NCBI GenBank assembly: GCA_919902495.1
Contig: CAKKRC010000034.1
Span: 1-41,987, forward strand
Length of the DNA: 41,987 nucleotides
Direction: 5' to 3'
Source of the DNA: Nitrospiria bacterium
GTDB taxonomy: Bacteria > Nitrospirota > UBA9217
The position numbers were made by a program, and so were the translations under genes. Below, one piece after another: positions 4,071-29,695 of the stretch. Every line of letters starts with the position of its first letter. The stretch's first letter is position 1. The notes below the pieces were generated by a model. That model did not search any database and was not told the origin of the DNA. It worked only from the letters and a program-made list of their open reading frames with translations.

Positions 4071-4106
4071 CTTTTACATTAAGAATTTGTTTTCCAGGAG
4101 GAAGGA

Positions 4107-5171
4107 ATGATCCCGATTCTCGTCGTGTCAAACACCCCCTACGCCGGAAGGACATTCGTCTCGCTCGGGCTGGCCCTGAAGCTCAAAGAGATGGACTACG
4201 ACGTAGGCTATATGAAGCCATTCGGCACCGTGCCGGTGAAGTCCGGCCCGGCGATCCACGACGCCGATGCCCTCTTCGCCCGGGAGGTCCTGGGCCTCAC
4301 GGACCCCATCGAGACGATATCGCCCTTCGTGCTGGACTTCGAACAGCAGGCGATGCTGCTCACCGGCGGGTTGAAGGACGCGCAGAAGCGCGTACTCGCC
4401 GCGTTCCGGACGCTCAAGAGGAAGGACTTCGCGATCATCGGCGGCGCAGGCGACCTCTTCGAGGGGGCGCTCACCGGCCTTGACGCCCTCTCGCTCGCCG
4501 GGGCGATGGAGGCCCATGTGCTCTTCGTCGAGCCCTGGCGCGGCGATACCTCGCTCGACGCCCTCTACGGCGCGGCGCAGCTCTTCGGCGAACGCTTCGC
4601 CGGCGGGGTCCTGAACAAGGTCCCCGAAGCGGCCCTGTCCCGCGTGAAGCAGGAGATCAAGCCCTTCCTCTTAAAGAAAGGCGTGCCGCTCTTCGGCGCG
4701 TTCCCCAAGGACCGCTTCCTCGAGTCCGTGACCGTGCGCCAATTGAACGAGATCCTGAACGGCAAGGTGCTGAGCGGCGAGACCCGCCTCGACGAGTCCG
4801 TGGAGAACTTTCTCATCGGAGCCATGGACGTGGACAGCGCGCTCACCTATTTCCGCAGAACACCCAACAAGGCGGTCATCACCGGCGCCCACCGTTCGGA
4901 CATCCAGCTCGCGGCGATGGAGACCTCCACCAAGTGCATCATCATCACCGGCGGCCTCCAGACCAACGAGGTCGTGCTCGGCAAGGCGCGCGCCACCAAC
5001 ACCCCGATCCTGTCGGTGCCCGATGACACATTCAGCACCATCGACAAGATCGAAATGCGCGTCGGGAAGACGAGCATTCGCGAGCGGAACAAGGTCGAGC
5101 GGGCCAGGAAGATCCTTGATACCGAGTTCGACATGTTCGGGTTTCTGAAAAGCGTGAAGGCGAAGACATGA
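4107..5171 (+). CDS. DRTGG-domain protein with BioD/CobB-like P-loop NTPase fold
   Basis: A 354-residue cytoplasmic protein. Residues 1-210 resemble the dethiobiotin-synthetase/cobyrinate-synthase-type NTPase fold found at the N-terminus of long phosphotransacetylases. About 215-330 is a DRTGG domain (KAVITGAHRSD, then IIITGG, then TPILSV). The P-loop region reads SNTPYAGRT, with Arg where a Walker A Lys is expected, so nucleotide binding may be altered or lost. AGGAGG lies 5-6 nt before the ATG. It follows the ADP-forming acyl-CoA synthetase with only a repeat between them, and a regulatory or adaptor role in acetyl-CoA metabolism is an inference from family and context. No catalytic reaction can be assigned. 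Confidence 0.8.
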   Translation: MIPILVVSNTPYAGRTFVSLGLALKLKEMDYDVGYMKPFGTVPVKSGPAIHDADALFAREVLGLTDPIETISPFVLDFEQQAMLLTGGLKDAQKRVLAAFRTLKRKDFAIIGGAGDLFEGALTGLDALSLAGAMEAHVLFVEPWRGDTSLDALYGAAQLFGERFAGGVLNKVPEAALSRVKQEIKPFLLKKGVPLFGAFPKDRFLESVTVRQLNEILNGKVLSGETRLDESVENFLIGAMDVDSALTYFRRTPNKAVITGAHRSDIQLAAMETSTKCIIITGGLQTNEVVLGKARATNTPILSVPDDTFSTIDKIEMRVGKTSIRERNKVERARKILDTEFDMFGFLKSVKAKT

Positions 5172-5194
5172 CCGGGGGGTTGGGTAAAGGCTCA

Positions 5195-5400
5195 AGCCTT
5201 GCTTTTCCAGAGGCCCCTGCATCCCGTGAACAGGTTCGCGTACAAGCATGCCCGGAACAAAGCCCGCAAGCCACAGATCATGCCTGCGCGTGCGAAGCGT
5301 AAGCGCACAGGGATGACCGTATCGTCAGGCACAACAGAAGACAACTTGGCATGCCTGCGCGGACCTGTGAATGGCGGTGCAGAAAAGAATGAAAGATGAT
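5195..5400 (+). repeat. Dispersed repeat, copy B
   Basis: Second direct copy of the element at 366-590, filling most of the 287-bp gap between the DRTGG and aldehyde dehydrogenase genes. It shares the GCGTGCGAAGCGTAAGCGCA core, CATGCCCGGAA and two CATGCCTGCGCG blocks (5279-5290 and about 5350-5361). The plus frame gives a 66-residue ORF (5199-5399) containing ARAKRKRTG, DNLACLRG and GAEKNE, matching copy A. The minus frame is also open and in the same codon register, so wobble positions coincide on both strands and the coding strand cannot be decided from these copies alone. Confidence 0.7.
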
Positions 5401-5458
5401 GATCAGTAGACGTTGAGCCGCTTCTTCCGGGTCCATATGCACGTTCCAGGACAACACC

Positions 5459-6832
5459 ATGCATAGCACCTCCATCAAACAGCTCCTCCACGAACACCGC
5501 TCCTACTTCGCGACGGGCATAACGAAGGACCCCTCCTTCCGCCTGGAGCAGCTCAGGGTCCTGAGAAAGGCCCTCACGGACAACGAGGACGCGCTCTTTC
5601 ACGCGCTCAAAGAGGACCTCAATAAACCTGCCTTCGAGGCCTACGGCGGCGAGTCCGCCATCGTCCTCCACGAGATCGACCATGCGCTCCGCCACCTCCG
5701 GTGCTGGTCGAAGCCTCGGCGCGTCAGGACGCCGCTGGCGTTCTTTCCCGCCCGGTGCTTCATTCATCCCGTGCCCTTCGGCGTGGCCCTGATCATCGGC
5801 CCCTGGAACTTCCCGGTCCAGCTCATGCTGGCTCCCCTGGCGGGCGCGATGGCCGCCGGCAACTGCGCCGTGCTCAAACCTTCCATTACCGCCCCCCATA
5901 CGTCGCACATCATCATGAAGCTCATCAGCGAGAACTTCGATCCGGCCTATGTGTCCATCGTCGAAGGAGGAGCCGAAACGGCGCAGGCACTGCTTGAAGA
6001 GCGGTTCGATCACGTCTTCTTCACCGGCGGGGTCGCTTCCGGCAGGCTCGTCATGGCGGCGGCGGCGAAGCACCTCACCCCGGTCACGCTGGAGCTGGGC
6101 GGCAAGAATGCCTGCATCGTCGACGCCGACGCCCCGCTGGACATCACGGCGCGGCGGATAGCCTTCGGCAAGTTCTTCAACGCCGGCCAGAGCTGCGTTG
6201 CCGTGGATTACCTGCTCGTGGACCGGCGTATCAAGCAGGCGCTGCTGTCGCGCATCCTCAAGTACACGGTCGAGTTCTACGGCGAGGACGCTTCCCGCAG
6301 TCCGGACTATGCACGGATCGTGAACGAGCAGCACTTCGACCGGTTGCTGGGGCTGCTGCACGCCGGGGACATCATGATCGGCGGCGGATCGGACCGGGCA
6401 AACCGGTACATCGCGCCCACGGTCATCGACGGCATAACCGGCAACGAACCGATCATGGAGGACGAGATCTTCGGCCCCCTGCTGCCGGTCATCTCCTACG
6501 ACGACCTGTCCGAGGCCATCGAGTTCGTGAACAGCAGGCCCCGGCCCCTGGCGCTCTATTTCTTTTCCCGGAACGCGGCACATCAAGAACGGGTGCTGGC
6601 CGGGACCTCGTCGGGCGGCGGGTGCATCAACGACACGGTCGTTCACGAGACCGTGACCGGCCTGCCCTTTGGAGGCGTCGGCGACAGCGGCATGGGCAAG
6701 TACCACGGCAAGGCGAGCTTTGACACCTTCACCCACGAGCGGAGCATCGTCAGGAACGGATTCCTGGTCGATGTCTTCTTGCGCTATCCTCCGTACAGGG
6801 ACCATCTCCGATGGCTGAAAAAACTTTTTTGA
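5459..6832 (+). CDS. Aldehyde dehydrogenase, class-3-like
   Basis: A 457-residue NAD(P)-dependent aldehyde dehydrogenase oxidising an aldehyde to the acid. Motifs are the cofactor-domain GPWNFP (114-119), FTGG (188-191), general-base Glu212 in LELGGK, and the catalytic Cys246 in NAGQSC. The compact length and these motif variants fit the class 3 / coniferyl- or fatty-aldehyde branch, which lacks the N-terminal extension of betaine-type enzymes. The C-terminus (FLRYPPYRDH, then a Leu-rich end) is typical of that branch. No convincing Shine-Dalgarno precedes the ATG. Upstream is repeat copy B and downstream a co-directed sensor kinase. The natural aldehyde is unknown; fatty or aromatic aldehydes are possible. 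Confidence 0.92.
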   Translation: MHSTSIKQLLHEHRSYFATGITKDPSFRLEQLRVLRKALTDNEDALFHALKEDLNKPAFEAYGGESAIVLHEIDHALRHLRCWSKPRRVRTPLAFFPARCFIHPVPFGVALIIGPWNFPVQLMLAPLAGAMAAGNCAVLKPSITAPHTSHIIMKLISENFDPAYVSIVEGGAETAQALLEERFDHVFFTGGVASGRLVMAAAAKHLTPVTLELGGKNACIVDADAPLDITARRIAFGKFFNAGQSCVAVDYLLVDRRIKQALLSRILKYTVEFYGEDASRSPDYARIVNEQHFDRLLGLLHAGDIMIGGGSDRANRYIAPTVIDGITGNEPIMEDEIFGPLLPVISYDDLSEAIEFVNSRPRPLALYFFSRNAAHQERVLAGTSSGGGCINDTVVHETVTGLPFGGVGDSGMGKYHGKASFDTFTHERSIVRNGFLVDVFLRYPPYRDHLRWLKKLF

Positions 6833-6891
6833 GTTGAACGAGCCGCCGTCAGGTATCGCTCGCTCAACTATCCTGCGCGGCGATCTTCTGA

Positions 6892-6897
6892 TATAAT
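6892..6897 (+). promoter_or_regulatory. -10 box upstream of the hybrid kinase
   Basis: A perfect TATAAT lies 26 nt before the ATG at 6924. The -35 region is poor, and no clear Shine-Dalgarno is present in the short leader. Confidence 0.4.
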
Positions 6898-6923
6898 AAC
6901 TACGGAAATCCTTACAAGACACC

Positions 6924-9900
6924 ATGAAAGAAAAACCCAGGACATCGCGCACACCTGCGCGCAAAGCGCCGTTAAAAAAGTCCCCGCCGAAGGACGCGCT
7001 GCGGGCTGACGCCGCCATGCCCCTCTTCGACGAGAGTTACCGCATACTCTTCAACACCATGTCGCAGGGCGTCATTTTCCGCGACCACGAGGGCCGGATC
7101 GTATCGGTGAACACCGCGGCGGAGCGCATCTTCGGCAGAAAGGCTGCGGACCTCCTCGGCAAGACAAGCGCCGAGGTCCACGAGCAGGCCCTTCGGGAGG
7201 ACGGTTCCCGCCTTCCCGTGGGAGCGTTCCCCGCAGACGTCGCCCTTCGGACCGGCAAACCCCTGACCGGCTTCATCATGGCCACGCTGAATCCGGTGGC
7301 GAACGAGTACCGTTGGATCAGCGTCGATGCCATGCCGATCTTCCGCCCCGGGGAACAGCGGCCCTATCTTGTCTATATCCTTTTCGAGGACATCACCGGA
7401 CGCAGACGCATGGCCCGGGAGCTCCAGAAGGCCCACGACCACCTGGAGCAGGATGTGCACGATCGGACCCGGGAGCTTGTCGATGCCAATGAGGAGCTCT
7501 CCGCCCAGATAGAGGTCCGAAAAAAGGCAGAAACGGCCCTGCGGGAGAGCGAGCAGACCTTCCGGCGGCTGGCCGAGAACGCGGAGGACCTGATCTACAT
7601 CTACCGGCTCTGGCCGGAGCGAAAGTTCGAGTATGTCAGTCCCTCGGCGACGGCCATGACCGGATACACCCCCGACGAGCACTACGCCAATCCGGACCTC
7701 AGCCTCCAGATCGTCCACGCCGATGACCGGGGCAAGCTTACCGACGTCGCCACGGGCAGGAGCGATCCGCGGCAGCCGCTCACGCTCCGCTGGGTCCGGA
7801 AGGACGGCAGGACCATCTGGACCGAACAGAGGAACATTCCCATCACCGATGCGTCCGGACGGGTCGTCGCGCTCCAGGGTATCGCCCGGGATATCACCGA
7901 GCGGGTCCGGATCGAGGAGAAGCTGCGGGAAAACGAGCGGTTCCTCCAGACCATCATCGATACGGAACCGGAATGCGTCAAGATGATGAGCGCCGAGGGG
8001 ACGCTGCTCATGATGAACCGCGCCGGACTCGCCATGATCGACGCCGATTCCCTCGACCAGGTCAAGGGCCAATGCATCTATCCGCTCATCAACCCGCCCT
8101 ACCGCAAAAAATTCATACGCATGACGGAGCAGGTGTTCCAGGGAACGGGCGGCAAGCTCGTTTTCGAAGCGACCGGCCTGAAGGGCAGACGCATTTGGCT
8201 CGAAACGCACACGGTCCCGCTCAGGGACGAACAGGAACGCATCATCGCCGCCCTCGGGATCACCCGGGACATCACCGAGCGTACAATGGTCGAAGAGCTC
8301 CTTCGTACGAGCGAAGCCGGCCTTCGGGCGGCCCAGCGCCTCGCGCATATAGGCAGCTGGGAACGAGACCCGCGGACGCAGGAGGTCCGCTGGTCCGAGG
8401 AGACCTTCCGCATTCTCGGCAGGGATCCGGAACGCGATACGCCCTCCTTCGACGACTTCCTGGGCGCGGTCCACCCCCAGGACCGTGACACCGTTACCGC
8501 GGCCCTTGCCGATGCGCTGCGGAAAAAACAGCCCTATGACACGGACTTCCGCGTCATCCGCCCCGACGGCGCCGTGCGCATCGTCCACGCGCAGGCCGAG
8601 GTCACCTTCGATGCAGCCGGGGCGCCGGTGCGGATTCTCGGCACCATCCAGGACCTTACCGAGCGCCGCCGCGCCGAAGAGCTGCTGCCGCGCATCGTGG
8701 AAAAGATCTTCTCAAAGACCGGCCAGGACTATTTCCGCTCGGTCGTGGAATTCGTGGCGACGGAGCTCGGCACCGAGTTCGCTATGCTGGTGGAGCGCCT
8801 TCCGGACGGCAGGACGATGCGGACCGTCGCCGGGTACGCTCACGGCAGGCCCGCAAGCAGCTTCGAGTACGACATCGAGAACACTCCCTGCCAGAACGTC
8901 ATCGGCAAGACCTCATGCTTCTACCCGGAGCGGATGCAGGCGCTCTTTCCGAAGGACGCACTGCTGGCCACGATGGAGATCGAAAGCTACGCGGGCATCC
9001 CGCTTTCCACTGCGGCGGGCCGCCCTCTGGGCGGTTTCGTGACCATGGGATGCCGGCCGATGAAGGCCGCGGATCGGGACCGCATTATCACGCTGCTCCA
9101 GCTCTTCTCGGGCCGTGCCGCGGCCGAACTGGAACGGATGCAGTCGGAAAAGGCCCTCCAGCAAAACGAACACCGGTTCCGGCAGCTCGTTGAATCGGTC
9201 ACCAGCTATATCTACACCGTGACCGTGGAACAGGGCAAGGCCGTATCCACCGTGCACGGCCCCGGATGCGTCGCCGTGACGGGATATGCCTCGGGCGAGT
9301 ACGCGGCGGACCCGTTCCTGTGGTACCGCATGGTCCACGATCAGGACAAACAACTGGTCCTGAATCAGGCGGAGGACCTGCTCGCGGGCAAACACCCGGG
9401 ACCGGTCGAGCACCGGGTACGGCACAAGAACGGGGCCTTTGTCTGGGTCCGGAGCACGGTCGTCCCGCACGCTGATGAACAGGGCAGGCTCACGTCCTAT
9501 GACGGGCTGATAACGGATATCACCGCGCAAAAACGCGCCGAGGAATTTTCCCGGAACATCCTGGAGACCGTCGACGAGGGATTCCTGGTCATTGACCGGG
9601 ACTATACGGTCTTGTCGGCGAACAAGGCATATGCCCGTCAGGTAGGCATGGAACCGCGGGACATCGTCGGCCGGAAGTGCTACGAGATATCTCACAAGAT
9701 ATCCCGCCCCTGTTACGAGCAGGGAGAGGAATGCGCTGTGCGCCGCGTCTTCGAGACCGAGTCGCCGCACACCGTGATCCATACGCATCATGACGGCCTG
9801 GGAAACAATTTGGTCGTCGAGACCAAGGCGTTCCCGCTCCGCGACGATGCCGGCCGCGTCGTCGCCGCCATCGAGATCGTCCATAATATCACCGACAGGA

Positions 9901-11084
9901 AACGGCTCGAAGAACAGCTGCGGCATTCCCAGAAGATGGAGGCCGTGGGACTCCTTGCCGGCGGGATCTCCCATGACTTCAACAATATTTTGACCGCCAT
10001 CATAGGGTACGGCAATCTCCTGAAAATGAAGACCCCTGCCGATGATCCCCTGCAGCCTTACATCGAACAGATCCTCGCCTCCTCGGCGCGGGCGGCAACC
10101 CTCACCCAGGGACTGCTCGCCTTCAGCCGGAAACAGATCATCAATCCCCGTCCCCTGGACATCAACGATGCGACCCGCCGGTTCGAGAAGCTCCTGCACC
10201 GGGTCATCGGTGAGGACGTGGAGCTCCGCACCGACCTTGCGCCCGACGAGATGACCGTTTTTGCCGATCCCAGCCAGATGGAGCAGGTCCTGATGAACCT
10301 CGCCACGAACGCCCGGGACGCCATGCCGCGGGGAGGCACGCTCACGGTGCGGACCGAGATCGCCGTGATCGGAGAGGAATTCCGGAAGGAGCACGGATTC
10401 GGGATTCCCGGGTCCTATGCCTGCATATCGATCAGTGACACGGGCGGCGGCATGGACCGAAAGATCCGCGACCACATCTTTGACCCGTTCTTCACCACCA
10501 AGGAGCCCGGCAGGGGCACCGGCCTCGGCCTTGCCATAGTCTACGGCATCATGAAGCAGAACAACGGGTACGTCCTGGTCGACAGCGAGCCGGAAAAGGG
10601 CTCCTGTTTCCGGCTGTACTTCCCGCTCATCGCCGCGGCCGCGGAGACGGCGACGGTGGACGAGCCGCTCCCGCCGGAAGAAGGACATGAGACGATCCTC
10701 ATCGCCGAGGACGACGCCACGATCCGGCAGCTCAACCGGACCATGCTGAGCGAGTTCGGCTACACCGTCATCGAGGCCGCGGACGGAGAGGAAGCGGTCG
10801 CCAGGTTCCGGGAGCACCAGGACGCCATCAAGTTCGTCATTCTCGATGTCGTCATGCCGAAAATGAACGGCAAGGAAGTCCATGATGAGATCATTGCGAT
10901 CAAGCCGGACGTGAAGACCCTGTACGTGAGCGGATACAGCGCCGATATCATCCGCGCCAAGGGGATCACCGGGGAATCCCAGAACATCATCTTTAAACCA
11001 GTCTCGCCCATGGACCTTCTGCGTACGGTCAGACGGATCCTGGACGGCGGGGACCACGCCCGGAAACCCTCTGCCGGACAATGA
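6924..11084 (+). CDS. Hybrid sensor histidine kinase with six PAS, GAF, HisKA, HATPase and receiver domains
   Basis: A 1386-residue soluble hybrid kinase with no membrane segments. The order is a basic N-terminus, PAS 1 (about 38-160), a coiled coil (160-205), PAS 2 (215-330), PAS 3 (338-458), PAS 4 (470-585), a GAF-like domain (590-735), PAS 5 (750-870), PAS 6 (875-995), HisKA with phospho-acceptor His1017 in SHDFNN, HATPase (about 1110-1235, with NARDAMP, DTGGGM and [11 protein letters not shown]), and a receiver domain (1258-1375) with Asp1308 in [13 protein letters not shown] 6 has a Cys/His cluster (CYEISH, then PCYEQGEEC) that might bind a metal or respond to redox; this is inference. 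The terminal receiver suggests phosphorelay to an unlinked histidine phosphotransferase. No output regulator is adjacent. Confidence 0.93.
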
Positions 11085-19283: not shown

Positions 19284-21212
19284 CTACGTTGTCTTCTTAT
19301 GCACCGAGTAAATGCCGTAGATCTTGACGGGGATCTCCTTGCCCTTCACCTTCACCGTGTCCATCTCCTTCATGTCCACGCGGTAGAGCTTTCCTTCCTC
19401 GGCAAGGTGCCGGATCTTCTCGAAGGTGAACTCGGTGATCAGCACCCGTGAGTCGTACTTCCGCGTCAGCGTTTCGACGCGGGCGCCCAGGTTCACGTGG
19501 TCGCCGATGATGGTGTAGTCCATCTTTTTGTCCGCCGAACCGATATTGCCCACCAGCACGTCGCCCGTGTTGATCCCGATGCCGTTGTCCAGCGGATACT
19601 TGCCCTCGGCCCGCCACTTCGCCTGCAGCTCCTCGAGCTTGTCCGACATGTTCAGCGCGCACTTGATCGCCAGCTCGGCGTGGTTAGGCTGCTCCAGCGG
19701 CGCTCCCCAGAAGGCCATGATCTCGTCGCCCACGAACTTGTCGAGCGTGCCGTCCCACTTGAAGATGATGTCGGTCATCTCGTGGAGGTACTCGTTCAGG
19801 TGCTCCACGACCTCCTCAGGCTTGCGCGACTCCGAGAAGGTGGTGAACCCGCGTACGTCGGAGAAGAGCACCGTGATCTCGCGGCGGTAGCCGCCGAGCT
19901 TTGCCAACTCGGGATTTTTGAGAAGCTCCTCGACGATCTTTGGCGATACATAGTGGGAGAACATCTTCTTCAGTTCCTTCGCCTTCCGCTCCTCGGTCAG
20001 GTACTTGTAGGCGCCTGAGAATACCGAGATGACCGCCATGTTGGCGAAGGGATAAAAGAGGTTCGCGTAGTAGCCGTGATAGGCGAAGAGATACTGGTTC
20101 CCCGCGGCGTAGAGGCCCATCAGCGCGAAGGACAGGACGAGGCCGTTCCGGGCACGCATAGTCGGCAGCAGCAGCGACAGGACGAGGCCGGTGACGATGA
20201 CCGCCAGGGTGACGACGGATATCGGCGCGTTCTTCAGGAACCGCTTGTTCAGGATGTTCTCGACGACCGTCGCGTTCTTCTCCACGCCCGGCATGCGGGC
20301 CGAGAAGGGCGTGACCACGAAGTCGTAGGTGGAGATGGCCGAAGTGCCCAGGAAGACCACCTTGCCCGTCAGGTCCGATGGCTGGTAGGACCCGGATAGC
20401 ACGTCCGCCGCGGAAATATAGCGGAGGGTCCGGTCCCGGCCGAGATAATCGACGCGCATGCGTCCGGCGGGCTCGACGGGGATGTACGTGTCACCGACCT
20501 GCACACCCCTGCCCGCGTATACGACGATATCGGCAGTCGTCTTCCCGAGCGCCTGGGCCGCCGCGACCAGGGACAGGGACGGATAGACGTCGTCAGCGTA
20601 CTTTATGTAGAGGTACTCCCACCGCAGCTTACCGTCAAGGTCCGACGGGCTGTACACGTGGCCCAGCATCGCCTGCGAAGAAAGCTGGGCGATGGAGGTC
20701 TTGGGCTTGTTCACTTGCGGCGCCTGGCTGAGCCGCGACTGGTCCTTGATGTTGAGCAGGGCGTTGTCCAGGAGAAAATCCGGGGCCTCGACGGTCTTCC
20801 CCGGAACCACATCGAACCCGGCGGCCATGACGATCGTGCCGCGCCCTTTGCCGAGCGTCTTCGCGAGCGCCGCGTCGGCCTTTTTGCTCTCCCGCTCGGG
20901 ATAGAAGATATCGACCGCCAGGACCGAAGGCTTCGCCTTCGCGATCCGTTCGATCAGCTTCGCCTGGCGCACCCGGCTCCAGGGCCACCGGCCGTACTTC
21001 TCCAGGCTCTTCTCGTCGACCTCCACGATCACGATGTTTTGGGGCACGACAGGCGGGGCCATGAGGTTGCGGAGCTGGAAGCGGAAATCCACGAGGAGCG
21101 ACTCGACGCGCTCCTCGACGAACTGCGGCGCAAGAAGGTTCAGCACGAGGAAGCACCCCGTGCTGACGACGCCGAAGACGGTGATGGCTTTTATCCTGGT
21201 GAAAGGATTCAC
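19284..21212 (-). CDS. CHASE2-domain class III adenylate cyclase
   Basis: A 642-residue membrane receptor cyclase predicted to make cAMP. An N-terminal membrane helix (about 10-30) leads into a periplasmic CHASE2 sensor domain (about 35-325), then three membrane helices (about 335-405), then a class III cyclase domain (about 440-620). Metal-binding Asp452 is in FSDVRGF and the base-recognising Lys492 is in DKFVGDE; DYTIIGD and NLGARVE complete the active site, favouring ATP over GTP. The start is GTG at 21212. It is the last gene of the downstream TPR-barrel/FecR/beta-helix module, 16 bp after the lipoprotein gene, so it probably reads an envelope signal linked to that module. Confidence 0.92.
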   Translation of the reverse strand: MNPFTRIKAITVFGVVSTGCFLVLNLLAPQFVEERVESLLVDFRFQLRNLMAPPVVPQNIVIVEVDEKSLEKYGRWPWSRVRQAKLIERIAKAKPSVLAVDIFYPERESKKADAALAKTLGKGRGTIVMAAGFDVVPGKTVEAPDFLLDNALLNIKDQSRLSQAPQVNKPKTSIAQLSSQAMLGHVYSPSDLDGKLRWEYLYIKYADDVYPSLSLVAAAQALGKTTADIVVYAGRGVQVGDTYIPVEPAGRMRVDYLGRDRTLRYISAADVLSGSYQPSDLTGKVVFLGTSAISTYDFVVTPFSARMPGVEKNATVVENILNKRFLKNAPISVVTLAVIVTGLVLSLLLPTMRARNGLVLSFALMGLYAAGNQYLFAYHGYYANLFYPFANMAVISVFSGAYKYLTEERKAKELKKMFSHYVSPKIVEELLKNPELAKLGGYRREITVLFSDVRGFTTFSESRKPEEVVEHLNEYLHEMTDIIFKWDGTLDKFVGDEIMAFWGAPLEQPNHAELAIKCALNMSDKLEELQAKWRAEGKYPLDNGIGINTGDVLVGNIGSADKKMDYTIIGDHVNLGARVETLTRKYDSRVLITEFTFEKIRHLAEEGKLYRVDMKEMDTVKVKGKEIPVKIYGIYSVHKKTT

Positions 21213-21228
21213 AGGCGATACCTAATTA

Positions 21229-22869
21229 TCATATCTGCGGCTTACCAACACCTTGTGGCGGCAGGCATCCGTTCGGGACTGCCGCGTTGAATGGGATGTA
21301 CTGCGGCGTCGGCGTCGGCGTCGTGACGAATATGTCGTCACCCTGAAGGGACGAGAACGGTCCGCCGAACACGGTCGGCCCGGGATACAATGCCGTCGTG
21401 GTGTCATGGTCCCACGAATTATTCCGCAGATCAAATACCAGTGTCGCCTGGGGATCGTTCACGCCAACATCGTGAGCAGCATTGCAATAGAGGGTGTTCC
21501 CGTTGACCCGAGGTGAGCCCACTGCCGTTGAAATATCAATTCCGATCCAGTTGCCGCTGATCGTGTTGCCGGTGATATCCGGGCTTGCATCGGCGACCGT
21601 GATGCCCCAGCTATGGTCCAGTATCGTGTTCCCGGTAATGGCCGGGTTCCCGCTCAGGACAGCGATGCCTGTGCCATTCCAGATGAACTGCTGCAGGAAC
21701 GTGTTCGCGCTGATCTGCGGTTTTCCGGCAGACGCGGTCCGAACGGCGATATTATCGGAGTCGAACGTGTTGCCGCTGATAACGGCATCCCCCGCTCCCG
21801 AGGCCAGCTCGACGCCGAGGGGAAGATTGGAAATGGCATTCCCGATGATGCTCGGCTTCCCGCTGTTCACCTGCACCCCGGTCACCGAGCCGCCTGCGGC
21901 ACTGCCGATCACTGCCGTTTCAAGGAGGACCGAGTCGTCATTGAAGATCACGCCTATGTTCGCAAGCCCGGTGGGAAATCCCGATAGCTCGACAGAGCTT
22001 CCGTTGATGCGGAACCGCGACTGCTGGCCCGGCAGGCCGCCGATGGCGTCATTGATCGCTATCCCGCCACCGCCCGGATTATTTACCCGGATCATGCAAT
22101 TGTCCATCGATGCACGGTCGTTCCCATAGATCGCCGTGGTCGAAAGCGTTTGGAGATCAAGCACCGTGGAGAAGCCCGCTCCGGTGCAAATCAGCGCCGT
22201 GGATGGATGAAGCTGGAGCGGGTAGGTTTCTCCTGCTGCCGCCCCGGCCGGAGGATAGGTGCCTGCCTCAACGAAGATGGCGTCGGTGCCGGTCGTCCGC
22301 GTGAGCGCATAGGTGATCGTTTGGAACGGATTCGTCGAGGTCCCCGAAGTCGCCGGCAGGTCGGTCCCCGTCGCAAAATTGACGTACAGTCCAGGACCGA
22401 CAAGCGCCATGCTGATCGGCAGGTCCACGTCCACGCCGCTCAGGTCCGTGGTCGCCGTACCCCGGTAGTAGGTCTGGCTGTCAACTCCGCGGATACCCTC
22501 GACGGTGAATTGCCGGGCCGTACCGTTCGGCACCTCGATACGAAGGATTGCTGTCGTCTGGTTCGTGCTTATGCCGGCGATGCCGACGATGGGTGTGGTC
22601 ATATCTGCCGCCGACACGGTCACCACGAGGACCTGCACGACCGATGGAATGTACGCGTAGGCCTCGGGCATGAGCTTAAGGTCAGCCAGCAGGTACCGCG
22701 CCCGGGCAAGAACCGTCGCCTTTTCGGCCTTGAGCCGGGCAGTATGCGCGTCCTCGCCGAAGGTGATCGTCACGAAGGACGTGTTCGCCGTGCGGATCGT
22801 GCTGCCGCAGGCGTATATGACCAGGATGGTCAGGAGAGTGATCAAGAGTATGGTCAGTGGTCTTTTCAT
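21229..22869 (-). CDS. Right-handed parallel beta-helix lipoprotein (module 1)
   Basis: A 546-residue lipoprotein. The signal ends VIYAC (Cys21, Gly at +2, consistent with outer-membrane sorting). An N-terminal Ig-like domain (about 25-165, with FTVEGIRG and DLSGVDVDLPI) is followed by DUF1565/NosD-type parallel beta-helix repeats (about 170-500), with many N-x-I/F-x-G-N turns such as ITGNTI and ISGNTF. The end carries NNSWDH, also found in the paralogue at 25080-27530 as KNAWDH. GAGG lies 8 nt before the ATG. It follows a FecR gene by 12 bp. It is probably surface-exposed and ligand- or polysaccharide-binding, but no enzymatic residues were recognised. Confidence 0.82.
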   Translation of the reverse strand: MKRPLTILLITLLTILVIYACGSTIRTANTSFVTITFGEDAHTARLKAEKATVLARARYLLADLKLMPEAYAYIPSVVQVLVVTVSAADMTTPIVGIAGISTNQTTAILRIEVPNGTARQFTVEGIRGVDSQTYYRGTATTDLSGVDVDLPISMALVGPGLYVNFATGTDLPATSGTSTNPFQTITYALTRTTGTDAIFVEAGTYPPAGAAAGETYPLQLHPSTALICTGAGFSTVLDLQTLSTTAIYGNDRASMDNCMIRVNNPGGGGIAINDAIGGLPGQQSRFRINGSSVELSGFPTGLANIGVIFNDDSVLLETAVIGSAAGGSVTGVQVNSGKPSIIGNAISNLPLGVELASGAGDAVISGNTFDSDNIAVRTASAGKPQISANTFLQQFIWNGTGIAVLSGNPAITGNTILDHSWGITVADASPDITGNTISGNWIGIDISTAVGSPRVNGNTLYCNAAHDVGVNDPQATLVFDLRNNSWDHDTTTALYPGPTVFGGPFSSLQGDDIFVTTPTPTPQYIPFNAAVPNGCLPPQGVGKPQI

Positions 22870-22881
22870 GGCAAGCCTCGC

Positions 22882-23664
22882 TTACTTCGGGAACTGGACG
22901 TTCATGTTCACGTTTGTCACCGCATGCGCCGGCTCCTGCTCGAATTGATGGCCCGGCTTCAGGCTGTGCTCGGCCTGGTCGTGCAGGTCGTCGATGATGT
23001 GTTGTTCCGGCTCGACCCCTTCACCGAGCCCCGGGAGTCCGCCCTTGTCGTCGACCCCGCCAACCGTGAGGTCCGCCGGCTTCGGCGTCGTCGGCGGCTT
23101 GTCGCCAGACACGGTCGAGGACTGGCCGGCGGTCACGACCTCGGTGCCGGCGATCTCGGCGTTGATGTTCCGCACTTCCACCGAACCCTCGAGCACCGTG
23201 ATCTCCGTGGCGCCCGTTTCCATATTATAGGACACCGTAAAGACCGTGCCGCGCGCCGCGGCAAAGGCCGTCGGCGTCGTCACCTTGAATCCCGAACTGC
23301 CCACGACGGAGCGGAGGCGTCCGTCGGCGAGCTCGTAGATGGACTCGGCGCGCTTCGATTCCGGGCTGTAGAGGTATTTCTTGATGACCAGCTTGCTGTT
23401 CGCGCCGAGGGTCAGGATGCTGTCGTCGCGGAAGAGCATCTTGACCCGCGCCTTGTCGCGCGTCACGACACTATCGCTCTCCAGGAGCGCGTCCTTGATC
23501 CTGGCGTCGATCTTCCCGGCCTTCCGCTCGATCACGGCCTTGCCGCGGACAGAGACCACATCCCCCGCCTTGTCCACGGCCCACGAGGGCAGGGCCAGTC
23601 CCATTGAAACGATCGCGGCCGTGAGCAGGCCGCACAACACTGATTTCAGGCGTTCGATCTTCAT
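22882..23664 (-). CDS. FecR-domain periplasmic protein (module 1)
   Basis: A 260-residue protein with a signal peptide (cleavage about 29, after PSWA). The FecR domain (about 33-190) has VRGKAVIER, the ILTLGANSKLVIKKYLY strand block, and TPTAFAAARGTVF. The family name comes from an iron-signalling anti-sigma regulator, but this stand-alone exported form lacks a membrane anchor and probably binds a ligand or partner in the periplasm. Its start codon overlaps the stop of the TPR-barrel gene (ATGA), and GGAG lies 8 nt upstream. It is clearly paralogous to the protein at 27546-28382; the C-terminal tails differ. Confidence 0.88.
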   Translation of the reverse strand: MKIERLKSVLCGLLTAAIVSMGLALPSWAVDKAGDVVSVRGKAVIERKAGKIDARIKDALLESDSVVTRDKARVKMLFRDDSILTLGANSKLVIKKYLYSPESKRAESIYELADGRLRSVVGSSGFKVTTPTAFAAARGTVFTVSYNMETGATEITVLEGSVEVRNINAEIAGTEVVTAGQSSTVSGDKPPTTPKPADLTVGGVDDKGGLPGLGEGVEPEQHIIDDLHDQAEHSLKPGHQFEQEPAHAVTNVNMNVQFPK

Positions 23665-24959
23665 AAGCGTATCTCCACCATGAGACTGACGACGTTCCTT
23701 GTGTATTGGTATACCGCCAGGTTCGAGTCGTTGATCGTATGCTGGTCGGACAGGGTGACCGTCGCGTTCTTCCCGGCCTTCCGGGACACGCCGACCGAGA
23801 ACTCCTGCGTCCCGTCGTGCCGCTTCTCGGTATTTCCCGGTGCAATGGCATCGTACTTCCGGTCATAATAGGAAAGGGCGCCGATGAACTTGTAGGCCTC
23901 CCACTCCGCGAGCGCATTCACCGTCCCCTTGTGGCCCGCGTATGACCAGGAATCAACGGCTGCCGCTTCGGCGTCATACGTATAATCGGCTGAAATGGCG
24001 GCCTTCTTGCCGAGCATGACCGTATGGCTCACGCCGGCTTCCGTGTTCGAACCGTTCTTCCCGGTCAGGCCGGTGAAGACCGGCGTGTCGAAGAACCGCT
24101 TCGCCTCGTAGGCCGCATGCGGTTCGGTGAGAGATTCGGGCGCCAGCGTCAGCGGCAGCCTGAACGCGAAGCGGTGCGCAGTACTGTAGTGTTCTCCGCG
24201 CAGTGACGTATAGATGAGATCGTATTCCAGGTTTGCCCCCACGGTCTTCGAGAGCTCATACCGGCCGGCCGCTTTTCCGGTGTGCTGCTGGACGTTATAG
24301 TCCTTGAGCTCGTGATGGATGCTCTTGTAGAACTGGTAGCCGATCCCGGCGCCCGCCTTGCCCGTGTCCACGAGCGAATAGTCGGCGTTCACCGCCCATA
24401 CCCAGCGCCAGTCGGCGTTCTTCACGCCCGGGGTGGTCGGCGAGTCCTGCTCTAGGATCACGTTCGAGTCGTACTGGAGCCCGCCCGACAGTTTTGCCGT
24501 GAACTTCTTCTTCTCCCCGGCCCCGGTCCCCTCGAGGAAACCCCGCGCCGCCGCGCTGACCTCCGGATCGGCGCTCTTCGCAGCCTGGGCCATCTGCGAC
24601 TTCGCCTCTTCCTGCTGACCGAGCTTTGCCAGGACGAGCGCCAGTTCGTACCGGGCCCGTCCGTCCGACGCGTCCGCCGCCACCGCTTGCTGCAGTACTT
24701 CTTTTGCCCGGCCGTTGTCGCCGGAACGGGCATAGGCGACGCCCAGGGATACCCGGGCCGCCTGGTCTCCCGGCTTCAGCTCCAGGGCCTTCCTGAGGTG
24801 GCCGATCGCGCCTGCATAGTCCTGCAGCTCGATGGCGTACTGCCCCTTGGTAAGGGCGATCTCGTAATCCCGCTCCACATTTATATCGGCCGCCAGGGCC
24901 GGCATGACCGCCAGGAGCAGGACGATCATGCTTGTGAGGAGTGCACTGGTTATCTTCAT
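23661..24959 (-). CDS. TPR plus outer-membrane beta-barrel protein, Slam-like (module 1)
   Basis: A 432-residue exported protein: signal peptide (about 1-23), TPR repeats (about 30-145), and a C-terminal region (about 155-432) of alternating amphipathic strands ending VEIRL, consistent with an outer-membrane barrel. The barrel begins GGLQYDSNVILE, identical in the paralogue at 28379-29695 and similar to the DSN motif of Slam/DUF560 barrels. Periplasmic TPRs plus a barrel, encoded next to a lipoprotein gene, is the Slam layout, so surface export of the linked lipoprotein is a reasonable inference. It starts from a -10 box only 6 nt upstream, with no Shine-Dalgarno. It overlaps the FecR gene by 4 nt. 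Confidence 0.8.
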   Translation of the reverse strand: MKITSALLTSMIVLLLAVMPALAADINVERDYEIALTKGQYAIELQDYAGAIGHLRKALELKPGDQAARVSLGVAYARSGDNGRAKEVLQQAVAADASDGRARYELALVLAKLGQQEEAKSQMAQAAKSADPEVSAAARGFLEGTGAGEKKKFTAKLSGGLQYDSNVILEQDSPTTPGVKNADWRWVWAVNADYSLVDTGKAGAGIGYQFYKSIHHELKDYNVQQHTGKAAGRYELSKTVGANLEYDLIYTSLRGEHYSTAHRFAFRLPLTLAPESLTEPHAAYEAKRFFDTPVFTGLTGKNGSNTEAGVSHTVMLGKKAAISADYTYDAEAAAVDSWSYAGHKGTVNALAEWEAYKFIGALSYYDRKYDAIAPGNTEKRHDGTQEFSVGVSRKAGKNATVTLSDQHTINDSNLAVYQYTRNVVSLMVEIRL

Positions 24960-24965
24960 GGGTCA

Positions 24966-24971
24966 ATTATA
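24966..24971 (-). promoter_or_regulatory. -10 box of the module 1 operon
   Basis: A perfect TATAAT on the minus strand, 6 nt before the ATG at 24959. The expected -35 falls in the loop of the preceding terminator and does not match consensus. It predicts a leaderless transcript. Confidence 0.5.
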
Positions 24972-24972
24972 G

Positions 24973-25000
24973 CAAAAAAATGCCGGGGTGCATCCCCGGC
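24973..25000 (-). terminator. Terminator of the module 2 operon
   Basis: On the minus strand, GCCGGGG/CCCCGGC (25000-24994 and 24988-24982) with a 5-nt loop is followed by a run of seven T at 24980-24974. It sits 80 bp after the stop of the lipoprotein gene at 25080 and directly abuts the TATAAT of the next operon. Confidence 0.88.
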
Positions 25001-25079
25001 GCGTGAAAAAAGCTGGTTTGTCTGCATGCCGACCGACCTGCCCGGCTTCACCCGGCATCCTCCCGTGAACGCAACGCAC

Positions 25080-27530
25080 TTACGGACAGGCCCCCGCTGC
25101 GGGCACGCTGTAGGGATCGATGATGGGAATCCCTGTCACGTCGAAAGAATAGCAGACGTCCGCACCGAGGCACGGGGCAAGGTCCATCGATGGCGGAGCG
25201 TGGTCCCAGGCGTTCTTCCGGGCGTCGATCTGGCTGTTGACCAGCACCTCGAGGTCCACGATTGCGTTGCAGAAGATGCTGTTCGACTTCACGGAAGGCG
25301 TTCCGCCGGTCACGGAAATGCCCACATCGTTGCTGGTGACGGTATTGAAGCTGACCGTGGGCATCCCGCCCGCGATCTCGATGCCCACGTCGTTGCCCGC
25401 GATGAAGTTCGTCTTGACCTCGTTCTTGTGGATGAGCGGCGCACCCGCCGATACCAGGATGCCCTTGATGTTGTTCGCGATGGTATTGTTCCGGACCGAC
25501 GGCCTGCCGCCCGCGGCAGTAACGATGATGCCGACGCCGTTGTTCTCAAGCGTGTTCCCGTCGATGGACGGGTCAGTATCGGCGTCCACCTCGATGCCGG
25601 TCTGCTTCCCGGAGATCCTGTTCCCGATGACCGACGGCCTGCCGGCGCTGATGACGATCCCGCGAATGCCGGCGCCCGATATGGTTGAAGTGGCCACGCT
25701 GGAATTTGCCGACAGGGTGACGGCATCGAGGGCCGGCCCGTCGATCACGCTGCTGCTCACCGTAATTTGCGACGGTGTGCCGCCGGGCCCGCTGACGCGG
25801 TCATCGATCCCCGTCTTTGCGGCTGCAGGAATGACCGTGCACCCGTCGATGCCGGCGTTCACGTTGCCGTAGATCGCGTCGGCTCCGCTGCCGGTCGCGT
25901 CGATGATCGTGCTGTTCGCGGCCCCGCGGCAATAGACCGTGGTGTACGGCGTGAGCTGAAGCGGAAAGACCTCGCCGTTCGCGGGCAGGTCGTACATGCC
26001 TGCCGCTGCATATACGCCCAGGACGTTCGTATTGCTCATCGTGATGACCGAGAGCACCTTGGTTATGGTCTTGTAGGGGCTGGCTTCCGATCCGCTGTTC
26101 CCGTCGCTGCCGGTGTTCGCGTCGACGTAGTACCCCGGCGCGACGCTCCAGAGCTGCCGGGTGTTCGTGTCGACGTTTCCCGCCTCGTCGCGGGCATTCA
26201 CCTTGAAGTAGTAGATCACGCCGGGGACGAGCCCGGTCGCAAGGTGGGAGGTTGCGCCGGGCGCGGTGATGACGGTCGGTTCCGGAGCGAACGCTCCCGA
26301 CGTTGTGCTCTGGGAGACCAGGTAAACGATGTTCGAAACAGGGGTCATATCATCGGTTGCGGCAAACCACGCCAGCTGCGAACTGGTGAGGGTAACGCGG
26401 GCAATGGAGTCGATCCCCGCGAAGACCGGCGGGACCGTATCGGTCGCGGTGCCGGTCGTGAACGACCACAGATGGTCCTGTGCCAGCGGAACGTTGTTCG
26501 TGCTCCGGGCAGCCGTCGTGATCGTCGCCGTATAGGTCGCGCTTGATGCCAGCGGGCCGGCGGGAGCGAACGTCGCCGTCCGGCCCGGCGTGTTGTAGGT
26601 CACCGTGCCGGTGATGCCGCTGACCGTGAATGAGGCGGCGGCGATCGTGGCCGGATCCATGGCCTCGGAGAATGCGGCGGTAATGACCGCGTTCAGCGGG
26701 ACGCCGGTCCCGCCGTCCGCCGGGCTGGTCGCGGTCACGCTTGGGATGGTAGGCGCCGTGGTGAACAGCCAGACGAAGCTCCGGGCGAGCGGGATCCCGT
26801 ATGCGCTCCGGGCGCCGGTGGTCAGCATAACGGTGTAGTCGGTGTTCGGGACAAGGTCAGCGGAAAGGGTGAAGGTGGCCGTCGTGCCGGCAGCGCTCAC
26901 CGTACCCGTGACCGTGATGCCGCTCGCGGTCTCCACGACAGAGAACGTGGTCGCAGTGATCGTCGAGGGGTCCATGGTCTCGGAGAAGGTGGCGGTGATG
27001 ACCGGCCGGTAAACAACGCCGGTCGCTCCATCGGCGGGAGCCGTCGCAGTGACCTGGGGTATGCTTGATGTTCCCGGCGTCATGACGATCGGGATATCGA
27101 GGGGAGCGCCGGTCAGGTCGACCACGACCTGTCCGCTGAACACGACAGAACTCGCGGCGGAAAGGCCCTGTACGAGAAAATTCCTTTGTGCGCCGATGGG
27201 GACATCGACCGTGATGCTCACGCTGTCAAGTCCCGCTGCGGCCTCGGTCCGCTCGATCGACGTCATGTCCGTGGCCGTGACGGTCAGCCGGACATTCGAT
27301 ACGATTGAAGGGATATACGCACTGGCCGGCGGCGGTGCAAGAAAAGCAGATGCGACACGCGCCATTCGATATGCAAGGGTCGCCGGTTCGACGGTCAGCG
27401 CGGCGGTTTTCCCCGCCGCCTGCACATTGACGGTCACCGTGCTTGTCCTGGGCGTCGTGATCGTGTTAAGACACGCGTACAGCACGCCGACGATCAGCAC
27501 CGCGACAATTATGAGCTTTCCTTTCTTCAT
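25080..27530 (-). CDS. Large lipoprotein with two Big_5 Ig domains, FN3-like domain and beta-helix (module 2)
   Basis: An 816-residue lipoprotein. The signal ends VLYAC (Cys20, Leu at +2). An N-terminal domain (about 25-150, with RNFLVQGL and DLTGAPLDIPI) is shared with the paralogue at 21229-22869. Two bacterial Ig (Big_5) domains follow (about 156-258 and 261-359, each with ATFSE/AAFSEAMDP), then an FN3-like domain (about 365-465), then a DUF1565 parallel beta-helix (about 470-800) ending in KNAWDH. The ATG at 27530 is used because AGGTGG lies 8 nt upstream; a GTG at 27542 is possible. It lies 15 bp after FecR2 and is followed by a terminator. It differs from its paralogue mainly by the inserted Ig/FN3 stalk. 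Confidence 0.85.
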   Translation of the reverse strand: MKKGKLIIVAVLIVGVLYACLNTITTPRTSTVTVNVQAAGKTAALTVEPATLAYRMARVASAFLAPPPASAYIPSIVSNVRLTVTATDMTSIERTEAAAGLDSVSITVDVPIGAQRNFLVQGLSAASSVVFSGQVVVDLTGAPLDIPIVMTPGTSSIPQVTATAPADGATGVVYRPVITATFSETMDPSTITATTFSVVETASGITVTGTVSAAGTTATFTLSADLVPNTDYTVMLTTGARSAYGIPLARSFVWLFTTAPTIPSVTATSPADGGTGVPLNAVITAAFSEAMDPATIAAASFTVSGITGTVTYNTPGRTATFAPAGPLASSATYTATITTAARSTNNVPLAQDHLWSFTTGTATDTVPPVFAGIDSIARVTLTSSQLAWFAATDDMTPVSNIVYLVSQSTTSGAFAPEPTVITAPGATSHLATGLVPGVIYYFKVNARDEAGNVDTNTRQLWSVAPGYYVDANTGSDGNSGSEASPYKTITKVLSVITMSNTNVLGVYAAAGMYDLPANGEVFPLQLTPYTTVYCRGAANSTIIDATGSGADAIYGNVNAGIDGCTVIPAAAKTGIDDRVSGPGGTPSQITVSSSVIDGPALDAVTLSANSSVATSTISGAGIRGIVISAGRPSVIGNRISGKQTGIEVDADTDPSIDGNTLENNGVGIIVTAAGGRPSVRNNTIANNIKGILVSAGAPLIHKNEVKTNFIAGNDVGIEIAGGMPTVSFNTVTSNDVGISVTGGTPSVKSNSIFCNAIVDLEVLVNSQIDARKNAWDHAPPSMDLAPCLGADVCYSFDVTGIPIIDPYSVPAAGACP

Positions 27531-27545
27531 GACGATCACCACCTG

Positions 27546-28382
27546 TTACTGAAAGACCGGCCTCACCGTGATCGGGGCCTTGACCGGCGGCACCGGCTGT
27601 TGATCGATCGGCGGCTCAATCAGGGGAGGCACGAACGGGTCACCCTGTCCCTGGCCGCCTTGTCCGCCCTGGCCCTGCTGGATGTCGGCGATCGTATCAT
27701 CGACGTCAGTGACGCCTATGTCGCCGCCGTCATCCGACAGATCGGCAAGTTCCTTAAGGTCATGACCGCGCGGCGACGTATCGGAGCCGCTTCCCCAGAG
27801 ATCGATGCTGAAGGGTTCCGGCGGGCTGGGACCGTCGCTCCCGGTGATGGTGGACATCTGGCCCGCGACGAGGATGACCATCCGGTCAGCGCCGTGCTTG
27901 ATGTTCCTGATCTCGAGGCCCCCCTCGATCACCGCGATCCCGGTCGTGTTGCCCGCCGCGTCAAACCACATCACAAAGACCGTCCCCCGCGCCGCGGCGT
28001 AGGCCGTGGGGGTCTGGACCTTGAACGCTCCGGCGCCGACGATCGCACGTAGCTTTCCGTCGGCAAGCTCATAGAGCGACTCCGCCTGCTTCGCAGCCGC
28101 GTTATAGAGGAACTGACGGACCACGAGCTTGCCGCTCGGCCCGAGGGTCAGCACGCTGTCGTTCTTGAACAGGATCTTGACCCGGCTGCGCTCCCGCGTA
28201 AGCACCGTGTCCTTCTCCTGCACGTCGTCCCGCACTTTCATGAAACGCGAGCCCTCGCCGTGCTCGATCACCGCTTTGCCGCGCAGGGAAACGACATTCC
28301 CTGCGTGCTCGATCGCCGCCGCGGTCCCGGGATGATGGACCGCAAGGACCGCGATCAGGAATATGGCCAACCTGTTCGTCAT
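27546..28382 (-). CDS. FecR-domain periplasmic protein (module 2)
   Basis: A 278-residue exported protein: signal peptide (about 1-23), FecR domain (about 25-185; LRGKAVIEH, VLTLGPSGKLVVRQFLY, TPTAYAAARGTVF), then an acidic linker and a Gly/Gln- then Pro-rich tail. Paralogous to 22882-23664 across the FecR domain, but the tail is different, so the two copies may contact different partners. It overlaps the TPR-barrel gene by 4 nt (ATGA), with GGAG upstream. Confidence 0.88.
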   Translation of the reverse strand: MTNRLAIFLIAVLAVHHPGTAAAIEHAGNVVSLRGKAVIEHGEGSRFMKVRDDVQEKDTVLTRERSRVKILFKNDSVLTLGPSGKLVVRQFLYNAAAKQAESLYELADGKLRAIVGAGAFKVQTPTAYAAARGTVFVMWFDAAGNTTGIAVIEGGLEIRNIKHGADRMVILVAGQMSTITGSDGPSPPEPFSIDLWGSGSDTSPRGHDLKELADLSDDGGDIGVTDVDDTIADIQQGQGGQGGQGQGDPFVPPLIEPPIDQQPVPPVKAPITVRPVFQ

Positions 28383-29695
28383 AACCGTATCTCCACAAAG
28401 AGGCCCACAATGTCCCTTCTATATGTATAGAGATCGAGGTTCGAGTCGTTCACCATGTACTGGTCGGCCAGGCTCACGCGCACGGTCCTGCTCAGGTCCC
28501 GAAAAACACCCACCGTGCCCTCCCACCGGCGGTCATGCCGATCGGGAGAGAACGGCACCGGCGACGGTCCGTACTTCCAGTCCGAAACAGCGGCATTCGC
28601 GAAGACCGAGTATCCTCCGAACTGGCTCCTCGCCGTGCAGGACAGCTTGTGGCCCGTGGCATCCCAGTTCGCTTTCTCCGCGAGATCCTGTTCGTAGCCA
28701 TATTCGAACACGACGCTCGTCTCCTTCGTGAACATCTGGGTATGGGACACCCCCGCGGTCGCCGCCGCGCCCGACCGGTCGCTGTTCGTCGGGAAATCCC
28801 CGCTGTTCAGGTACTTGCGGTCCTCCCAGCCTGCAGAGAACTGTGTTCTCGATTTTTCCATCAGGACCAGGCTAAGTACCGGCCGGACCGCTGCGAGCGA
28901 ACTGTAGCGTTCGCCGCCGACGTACGACGTAACATACCCCGCCTGCAGTGTGGCCTGCGTCCCCGGGGAGAACGCATACCGTCCGGCAAGACTGATATCA
29001 TGCTGCTGCACATTGTAATCCTCAAGCTCGTAATGCAGGTTCTGGTAGAACTGGTAGTTCGCCTCGAAACCGCTCCGCTCTGTCGTCCGGAAGGGATAAG
29101 AACCATAGACGGAGAGGATGCTCCGCCAATCAGACTTCCGGTCCTGCGGTATGAAAGGATTGTCAGGCTCCAGGATCACGTTCGAATCGTACTGGAGGCC
29201 TCCGACAACCTTCAGCGCAGGTTTCTCGCCTTTTTTCGACGGCGTCATCCCTTCCATCAGCTCCTTCGCGTTGTCTGCAAGCTCCGCGGTAGCGACCGCG
29301 GCGGTAACCGTCGCCAGCAGCCGGTTCGCCTCTCCATACTCTTTCAGGTGGGCAAGGACAACGCCCAACTCGTACCGGGACCGGGTGTTCGTCGGGTCCT
29401 CGGAATACACCTTCTGGAGCAGCTCCTTCGCCGGGCCGTACTCTTCATTCCGGGAATACGCGATCCCAAGCGCCAGCATCGCGCCATGCTCTCCCGGTTT
29501 AAGTTCGAGGGCTTTCTTGAGATACGCGATGGCCGGACCGTAGTTCCTGAGCTCGATCTCGTATTGTCCCTTGGCCAGAGCTATCTCATGATCCTTCAGG
29601 GTGTCGCATTCCGCCTTCCCGGGCAGCAGGAAAATAAGACAGAAAACGACGATCCCCGCCCTGAAAGCGGATGTCAAACGTGAACTGCTCTTCAT
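28379..29695 (-). CDS. TPR plus outer-membrane beta-barrel protein, Slam-like (module 2)
   Basis: A 438-residue exported protein: signal peptide (about 1-30), TPRs (about 35-140; YGPAIAYLKKALELKPGEHG), and a barrel-like C-terminus (about 160-438) beginning GGLQYDSNVILE and ending VEIRL, both shared with the paralogue at 23661-24959. It is the first gene of module 2 and is divergent from the sigma-54-controlled small membrane genes. The ATG is preceded by an extended -10 box 6 nt away and no Shine-Dalgarno. A role in exporting or anchoring the linked lipoprotein is inferred. Confidence 0.8.
   Translation of the reverse strand: MKSSSRLTSAFRAGIVVFCLIFLLPGKAECDTLKDHEIALAKGQYEIELRNYGPAIAYLKKALELKPGEHGAMLALGIAYSRNEEYGPAKELLQKVYSEDPTNTRSRYELGVVLAHLKEYGEANRLLATVTAAVATAELADNAKELMEGMTPSKKGEKPALKVVGGLQYDSNVILEPDNPFIPQDRKSDWRSILSVYGSYPFRTTERSGFEANYQFYQNLHYELEDYNVQQHDISLAGRYAFSPGTQATLQAGYVTSYVGGERYSSLAAVRPVLSLVLMEKSRTQFSAGWEDRKYLNSGDFPTNSDRSGAAATAGVSHTQMFTKETSVVFEYGYEQDLAEKANWDATGHKLSCTARSQFGGYSVFANAAVSDWKYGPSPVPFSPDRHDRRWEGTVGVFRDLSRTVRVSLADQYMVNDSNLDLYTYRRDIVGLFVEIRL

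Follow-up and report, generated by a model that had tools for sequence, protein, structure and literature searches.

How does a signal from outside the outer membrane reach a CHASE2 cyclase in the inner membrane? The question is open even for the NsrA-CyaK system of the plant symbiont Sinorhizobium meliloti, in which an external signal needs the outer-membrane protein NsrA to raise cyclic AMP (cAMP) through CHASE2 cyclases (PMC7529298, PMC13001267). It is raised again by a 41,987-nucleotide contig of a Nitrospiria bacterium (CAKKRC010000034.1; here, the window), which appears to encode the same chain in separate, small, exchangeable parts. On the minus strand of the window, seven open reading frames spanning 19284–29695 are all present, and give the gene order tetratricopeptide repeat (TPR)-barrel protein, FecR-domain protein, lipoprotein twice in tandem, with one CHASE2 cyclase after the second set. 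By analogy, we consider it probable that this module is a split NsrA-CyaK-type relay from the outer membrane to cAMP, with an adaptor lipoprotein added and its receptor parts in tandem cassettes.

Two cassettes and one cyclase

Cassette A begins with a 438-amino acid TPR-barrel protein (28379–29695), which has a signal peptide, TPR repeats, and an outer-membrane barrel, as indicated by Pfam and by the predicted structure of its paralogue in cassette B. A periplasmic FecR-domain protein of 278 amino acids follows (27546–28382; FecR PF04773, E=3.4e-12), and then a lipoprotein of 816 amino acids (25080–27530) with a YAC lipobox, an N-terminal domain, two Big_5 domains, an fn3 domain, and a β-helix/DUF1565 region. 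The reading frame of this lipoprotein can be extended to a GTG codon (25080–27542, 820 amino acids); the lipoprotein signal begins at the ATG at 27530. Cassette B consists of a 432-amino acid TPR-barrel protein (23661–24959), a 260-amino acid periplasmic FecR-domain protein (22882–23664; FecR E=6.1e-15), and a 546-amino acid lipoprotein (21229–22869) with a YAC lipobox, an N-terminal domain, and a DUF1565/NosD β-helix. The adenylate/guanylate cyclase (642 amino acids, 19284–21212; CHASE2 E=2.5e-54, Guanylate_cyc E=3e-23) starts 16 nt downstream of lipoprotein B. The TPR, FecR, CHASE2, and Guanylate_cyc matches of the window proteins are all well above their Pfam cut-offs.

The barrel and FecR genes overlap by 4 nt in both cassettes, and the gap from FecR to lipoprotein is 15 nt in A (to the ATG) and 12 nt in B. 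Spacing within each cassette is thus operon-like, and the doubled gene order, with its 4-nt overlaps and gaps of 12–15 bp, is as the first-pass annotation of the window had described it. The cassettes are separated by a 120-nt spacer, which includes a terminator-like hairpin of seven GC pairs followed by a T-run (24982–25000, minus strand; consensus scan only). Because of this hairpin, cassettes A and B may be separate transcription units. A recent duplication of the cassettes is ruled out by the barrel tree, in which barrel A is sister to a group formed by barrel B and the single copy of a family relative (support 100/92). Because barrel A branches outside barrel B and the relative's copy, the tree dates the duplication as an old one within the family.

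Conservation of the module

Using home-made profiles of each of the four proteins, we examined 65 neighborhoods from the searched genomes and a further 60 from named loci. Of 396 sampled Nitrospirota genomes, 137 (about a third) match the barrel profile, and further barrel loci occur in Geobacteraceae, Zetaproteobacteria, and other phyla; some of these lineages, Geobacteraceae for example, have cultivated members. A FecR gene lies on the same strand within 700 nt downstream in 79 of the 93 non-redundant barrel loci with enough sequence, so that the gene order, which could have been peculiar to this genome, is conserved well beyond it. Among loci with more than 5 kb of sequence (n=83), 49 have the lipoprotein, 39 have the CHASE2 cyclase, and 63 have at least one of these.

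The genome itself has a third copy on another contig, comprising TPR-barrel, FecR, lipoprotein, and its own CHASE2 cyclase; the lipoprotein of this copy has a β-propeller in place of the β-helix. Tandem arrays with a single terminal cyclase recur at two other loci (L143 and L145). The two barrels of L145 (L100 in the tree) are each other's closest kin, and because of this its tandem is, on the tree, an independent duplication.

Two neighboring regions may be mentioned. Upstream of the third module (L006, C5 of the same genome, ~14–8104) are large Ig-like surface-type proteins, one with a cohesin-like start and two with dockerin-like ends as judged by eye; the largest, the only one scanned, matched Big_5 and other families and gave no cohesin or dockerin match. 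In the window, the plus strand at 6924–11084 encodes a large hybrid sensor kinase (1386 amino acids) that combines multiple PAS domains with HisKA, HATPase, and a receiver domain.

Lipoproteins with a common N-terminal domain

The lipoproteins of cassettes A and B share an N-terminal block (37% identical) and a DUF1565/β-helix C-terminus, as had been noticed at first pass. The N-terminal domain, of ~140 residues, is common to all three lipoproteins of the genome, and we have named it LPN (B, 22375–22806; A, 27006–27470; minus strand), defining it by alignment, profile, and model. Whole-length alignment of the three lipoproteins was misled by domain insertions, and an alignment of the N-terminal part only was used. 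The LPN of lipoprotein B is modeled as a seven-strand β-sandwich, with a predicted local distance difference test score (pLDDT) of 81. A fold search with it returned no solved match at E<=0.001 and only weak CBM20- or fn3-like matches.

In nearly all of 54 lipoproteins, the lipobox Cys is followed by a Gly/Ser-rich stretch (by eye and by pattern). The +2 residue is Leu in A and Gly in B; neither is Asp, which fits an outer-membrane lipoprotein. The C-terminal parts vary, and include fn3, DUF1565/NosD β-helix, Big_5, propeller, and laminin-G domains. This combination of a conserved N-terminal lipoprotein domain with variable C-terminal domains appears to be new. The β-helix parts in the window (21232–22869 and 25083–27530) also match NCBIfam LIC10774/LIC10365 (Leptospira surface protein), below the curated cut-offs.

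LPN occurs in 99 copies in the 396 genomes, 71 of them within 6 kb of a barrel, and 61 of the 74 LPN-bearing genomes have a barrel, as against 137 of 396 overall (phylogeny uncorrected). Several of the others, found at the end of a contig or beside a CHASE2 gene on a short contig, are probably truncated modules.

FecR proteins and their C-terminal tail

The two FecR proteins are 40% identical, which bears out their early description as paralogues. A FecR domain beside an outer-membrane barrel recalls classical cell-surface signaling, in which FecR works as an anti-sigma protein together with an outer-membrane receptor and an extracytoplasmic function sigma factor. The window FecRs, however, consist of a signal peptide and a FecR domain, with no cytoplasmic anti-sigma part. 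No sigma factor was identified among the neighboring proteins scanned, though no search was aimed at sigma factors, and a Pfam scan of the window barrel gave no match to a TonB-receptor family. We rejected the classical arrangement on the lack of a sigma factor among the scanned proteins and of an anti-sigma domain, and hold it to be highly improbable here.

The module FecR proteins end instead in a Pro/Gln-rich linker and an alternating β-strand, for example TPVNINITFP. FecR A has a Pro-rich linker and a strand tail ending in KAPITVRPVFQ (27549–27581), and the tail of FecR B ends in TNVNMNVQFPK (22885–22917). The tail is present in 49 of 54 FecRs with a lipoprotein downstream versus 5 of 24 without, for a pattern that was chosen post hoc and with phylogeny uncorrected; the pattern matches shuffled tails 13% of the time. 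Carriers without a lipoprotein that are nested among lipoprotein carriers have also lost the tail (L153, L151, and L074), and both are likewise lost in L085 and L082, which belong to the same genus as L074. No copy of the lipoprotein domain was detectable in the genomes of these tail-less loci. L140 has the tail and no adjoining lipoprotein, and two copies of the lipoprotein domain lie elsewhere in its genome. In three Geobacteraceae that have the tail, the domain gives no strict match, although in L126, one of the three, a weak one lies immediately upstream of the barrel. These sequence patterns suggest that the FecR tail probably docks on LPN. The accompaniment of the module lipoprotein by the tail appears to be new, and with the co-loss of the two provides a concrete, testable contact. 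In NsrA such a contact would be hidden by fusion: its FecR domain is internal, so there is no free tail.

Some variants of these parts were also seen. Just upstream of the barrel in the Geobacteraceae loci L126 and L162 (8337–8858 in the latter) is a small lipoprotein-like gene of ~171–174 residues, which may encode an adaptor domain that lacks the sensor part. At L088, L104, L107, L108, L110, and L089, which are without the module lipoprotein, FecR is fused to a β-rich protein of 700–2000 residues. Each of these fusions ends in a common GTGAGIVR-like block and unites FecR with a putative surface part in a single chain. The FecRs also match NCBIfam Lsa33/LipL45, below the curated cut-offs.

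CHASE2 cyclase and cAMP-linked genes

The cyclase has a periplasmic CHASE2 domain, transmembrane segments, and a cytoplasmic class III cyclase domain. Residues D452, D496, K492, N574, and R578 are invariant with CyaK. We take these to be the catalytic metal-binding Asp pair (D452/D496), the substrate Lys (K492), and the transition-state Asn (N574) and Arg (R578). CHASE2 proteins are widespread (263 of 396 genomes of the phylum), so no conclusion can be drawn from their presence alone, only from their adjacency to the barrel. A gene for a class II cAMP phosphodiesterase or a metallo-β-lactamase-fold protein occurs within 9 kb in 21 of the 83 loci.

A metallo-β-lactamase-fold protein of ~490 residues, perhaps a cyclic-nucleotide hydrolase, recurs just upstream of the cyclase (L149, 5727–7184; L140, 11247–12755; L158, 12869–14350). 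Elsewhere in the same genome (L017, C38:45000–60000), genes for a cyclic-nucleotide-binding protein, a CHASE2 cyclase, and a class II cAMP phosphodiesterase stand in a row (6670–10215). This cyclase, the third of the CHASE2 type in the genome, thus forms a stand-alone, minimal cAMP unit, without barrel or FecR.

TPR-barrel proteins and the question of export

Barrels A and B (39% identity) have GGLQYDSNVILE and VEIRL in common, the features by which they had first been linked. The AlphaFold2 model of barrel B (mean pLDDT 93.7) has TPR helices at ~31–145 followed by a 14-strand barrel at 153–431. The alignment for the barrel model took in loci from the searched genomes plus related loci; a second model used an alignment of window and related-locus sequences only. 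When solved structures were searched by sequence with the barrel profile, the best 60 matches all came from the TPR part. By Foldseek, the closest solved folds to barrel B are BcsC (best), CymA, OmpG, and PelB, with query-normalised TM-scores below 0.5 among the matches listed. BcsC is a TPR-barrel protein of cellulose export, and the module barrel could be imagined to export a polysaccharide or small molecule as BcsC and PelB do, with the cyclase regulating export. The low scores argue against this, as does the neighborhood analysis, which showed no synthase or polysaccharide gene as a recurrent neighbor of the module, and we judge it very unlikely.

A stronger alternative is that the TPR-barrel acts mainly as a Slam-like (type 11 secretion) exporter that moves the neighboring lipoprotein to the surface. 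FecR would then be an accessory or plug, and the cyclase would merely lie in the operon or sense export stress. Slam and the type 11 secretion system (T11SS) are marked by a TPR domain at the N-terminus and an outer-membrane barrel behind it, and the window barrels have the same build (Pfam, AlphaFold2); here a lipoprotein gene adjoins, and to this extent the Slam layout claimed at first pass holds. The third barrel paralogue of the genome exceeds the cut-off of the Slam barrel family PF04575 (34.9 vs 22 bits), and 10 of 74 family members match it (E<=0.001); because of these matches a distant kinship to the Slam family is likely. The Gly-rich linker after the acylated Cys of the lipoproteins and the varying number of lipoproteins per barrel are also as an exporter might have them. 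However, neither window barrel matches PF04575 (SlipAM/DUF560) in a Pfam scan even at E=1, the TPR_Slam model is below its cut-off for a window barrel (23.2 vs 35.2 bits), and BBP2_2 is matched by more family members (18 of 74) than PF04575. The closest solved folds are those named above. The C-terminal 8-strand barrel of Slam/T11SS cargo (TbpBBD or similar) is absent from the window lipoproteins, which end in β-helices, and no TbpBBD-like family is among the 25 most frequent families of the 54 lipoproteins, a count that leaves out 18 rarer families. Nor are FecR and the cyclase mentioned in the T11SS surveys consulted. Membership of the window barrels in the Slam family is thus not supported by the PF04575 test, the resemblance appearing distant, and we regard export as the main function as rather unlikely. 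Export and signaling may also be combined, and a relay and lipoprotein export could both be true together.

A proposed relay from the envelope to cAMP

What the analysis shows is the gene content and order of the module and how far these are conserved, along with predicted folds, the catalytic residues, and the association of tail and lipoprotein. The NsrA-CyaK-type relay is supported by the conserved order, the third copy with its own cyclase, the NsrA-CyaK precedent, and the retained cyclase residues, and further by the phosphodiesterase neighbors, the proximity of LPN to barrels, the FecR tail association, and the recurrent single-cyclase arrays. The early suggestion of a sensing unit that converts the state of the envelope into cAMP accordingly remains the best reading, by analogy with NsrA-CyaK and with the catalytic residues intact.

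In the scheme that follows, we infer placement at the surface, the contacts made by FecR, the existence of a ligand, and cAMP as the output. The 14-strand outer-membrane barrel would carry periplasmic TPR repeats, and beside it the outer-membrane lipoprotein would combine the common N-terminal β-sandwich with an interchangeable C-terminal domain (β-helix, Ig/fn3, or propeller), the likely ligand- or surface-contacting part. A bridge to the inner membrane would be made by the small periplasmic FecR-domain protein, whose strand tail at the C-terminus probably docks on LPN and whose FecR domain would touch the cyclase's CHASE2 sensor. Synthesis of cAMP would then respond to changes in the lipoprotein/barrel complex, and where receptor cassettes stand in tandem, several of them would act on a single cyclase. 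More tentatively, as something possible rather than probable, we propose modular receptors: exchangeable sensors are placed on a common lipoprotein adaptor, the FecR strand completes or grips this adaptor, and the cassettes converge on one CHASE2 cyclase to make a multi-input cAMP switch across both membranes.

Several points weigh against the relay. The adjacency of the cyclase, which the first-pass annotation had wished to see counted, is borne out only in part: roughly half of the loci with sufficient sequence lack a CHASE2 cyclase at distances up to 7 kb. The enzyme may thus be provided in trans, or may not always be the output. When a 25-row barrel profile was aligned by hhalign with the single NsrA sequence, only the TPRs aligned, the barrel having no detectable homology. 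The tail pattern was picked after viewing the data, with counts that ignore phylogeny, and the fn3 and β-helix lipoproteins could simply be adhesins. If the relay is true, many "hypothetical" FecR, TPR, and β-helix lipoprotein genes become parts of one named pathway.

Comparison with known systems

The module resembles several systems in part. Slam/T11SS (DUF560, PF04575) shares the N-terminal TPR domain, the outer-membrane barrel, and the adjoining lipoprotein gene, and some barrel family members match PF04575; the window barrels and lipoproteins differ from it as set out above, and FecR and CHASE2 are not T11SS parts. BcsC and PelB, the best solved structural matches along with CymA and OmpG, also have a TPR domain and then an outer-membrane barrel, but belong to polysaccharide export systems with synthase genes. 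In a Burkholderia operon, a periplasmic FecR-LysM protein is encoded beside a CHASE2 histidine kinase (PMC5192318). This resembles the window in that a periplasmic FecR gene adjoins a CHASE2 sensor, but the output is a histidine kinase and there is no outer-membrane barrel/lipoprotein cassette of the window type (PMC5192318). In magnetotactic bacteria, mtxA precedes a CHASE2 cyclase gene (PMC4439547).

Closer are the Campylobacterota, in which a cluster of a CHASE2 cyclase, a cAMP phosphodiesterase, a FecR-domain outer-membrane protein, and a TPR protein is proposed to form a single signaling pathway (PMC9239204). Compared by description, these are the same four functional classes as in the window; the passage on this cluster makes no mention of a lipoprotein with a conserved N-terminal domain or of tandem cassettes (PMC9239204). 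With these gene sets, and with NsrA-CyaK, which fuses the same parts, the first-pass statement of knowing no described system with this combination is not borne out as worded. For the split module with its lipoprotein, we found no account in the open literature, subscription journals being mostly outside our coverage.

The closest precedent is NsrA-CyaK (with CyaD1/D2 and Clr), for which we drew on two reports and the NsrA sequence (PMC7529298, PMC13001267). NsrA (1219 amino acids) has a FecR domain at 85–179 and TPRs at ~397–606 (Pfam), and its barrel region, ~600–1200, is a prediction of those authors (PMC7529298, PMC13001267). On pSymB, nsrA ends where cyaK, encoding the CHASE2 cyclase, begins. 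FecR, TPR, and outer-membrane barrel thus immediately precede a CHASE2 class III cyclase, and the window likewise has all three beside such a cyclase (Pfam, AlphaFold2). NsrA holds them in one protein, and no module lipoprotein is described for it. In the window, by contrast, barrel and FecR are on separate genes, a lipoprotein is added, and the cassettes are in tandem.

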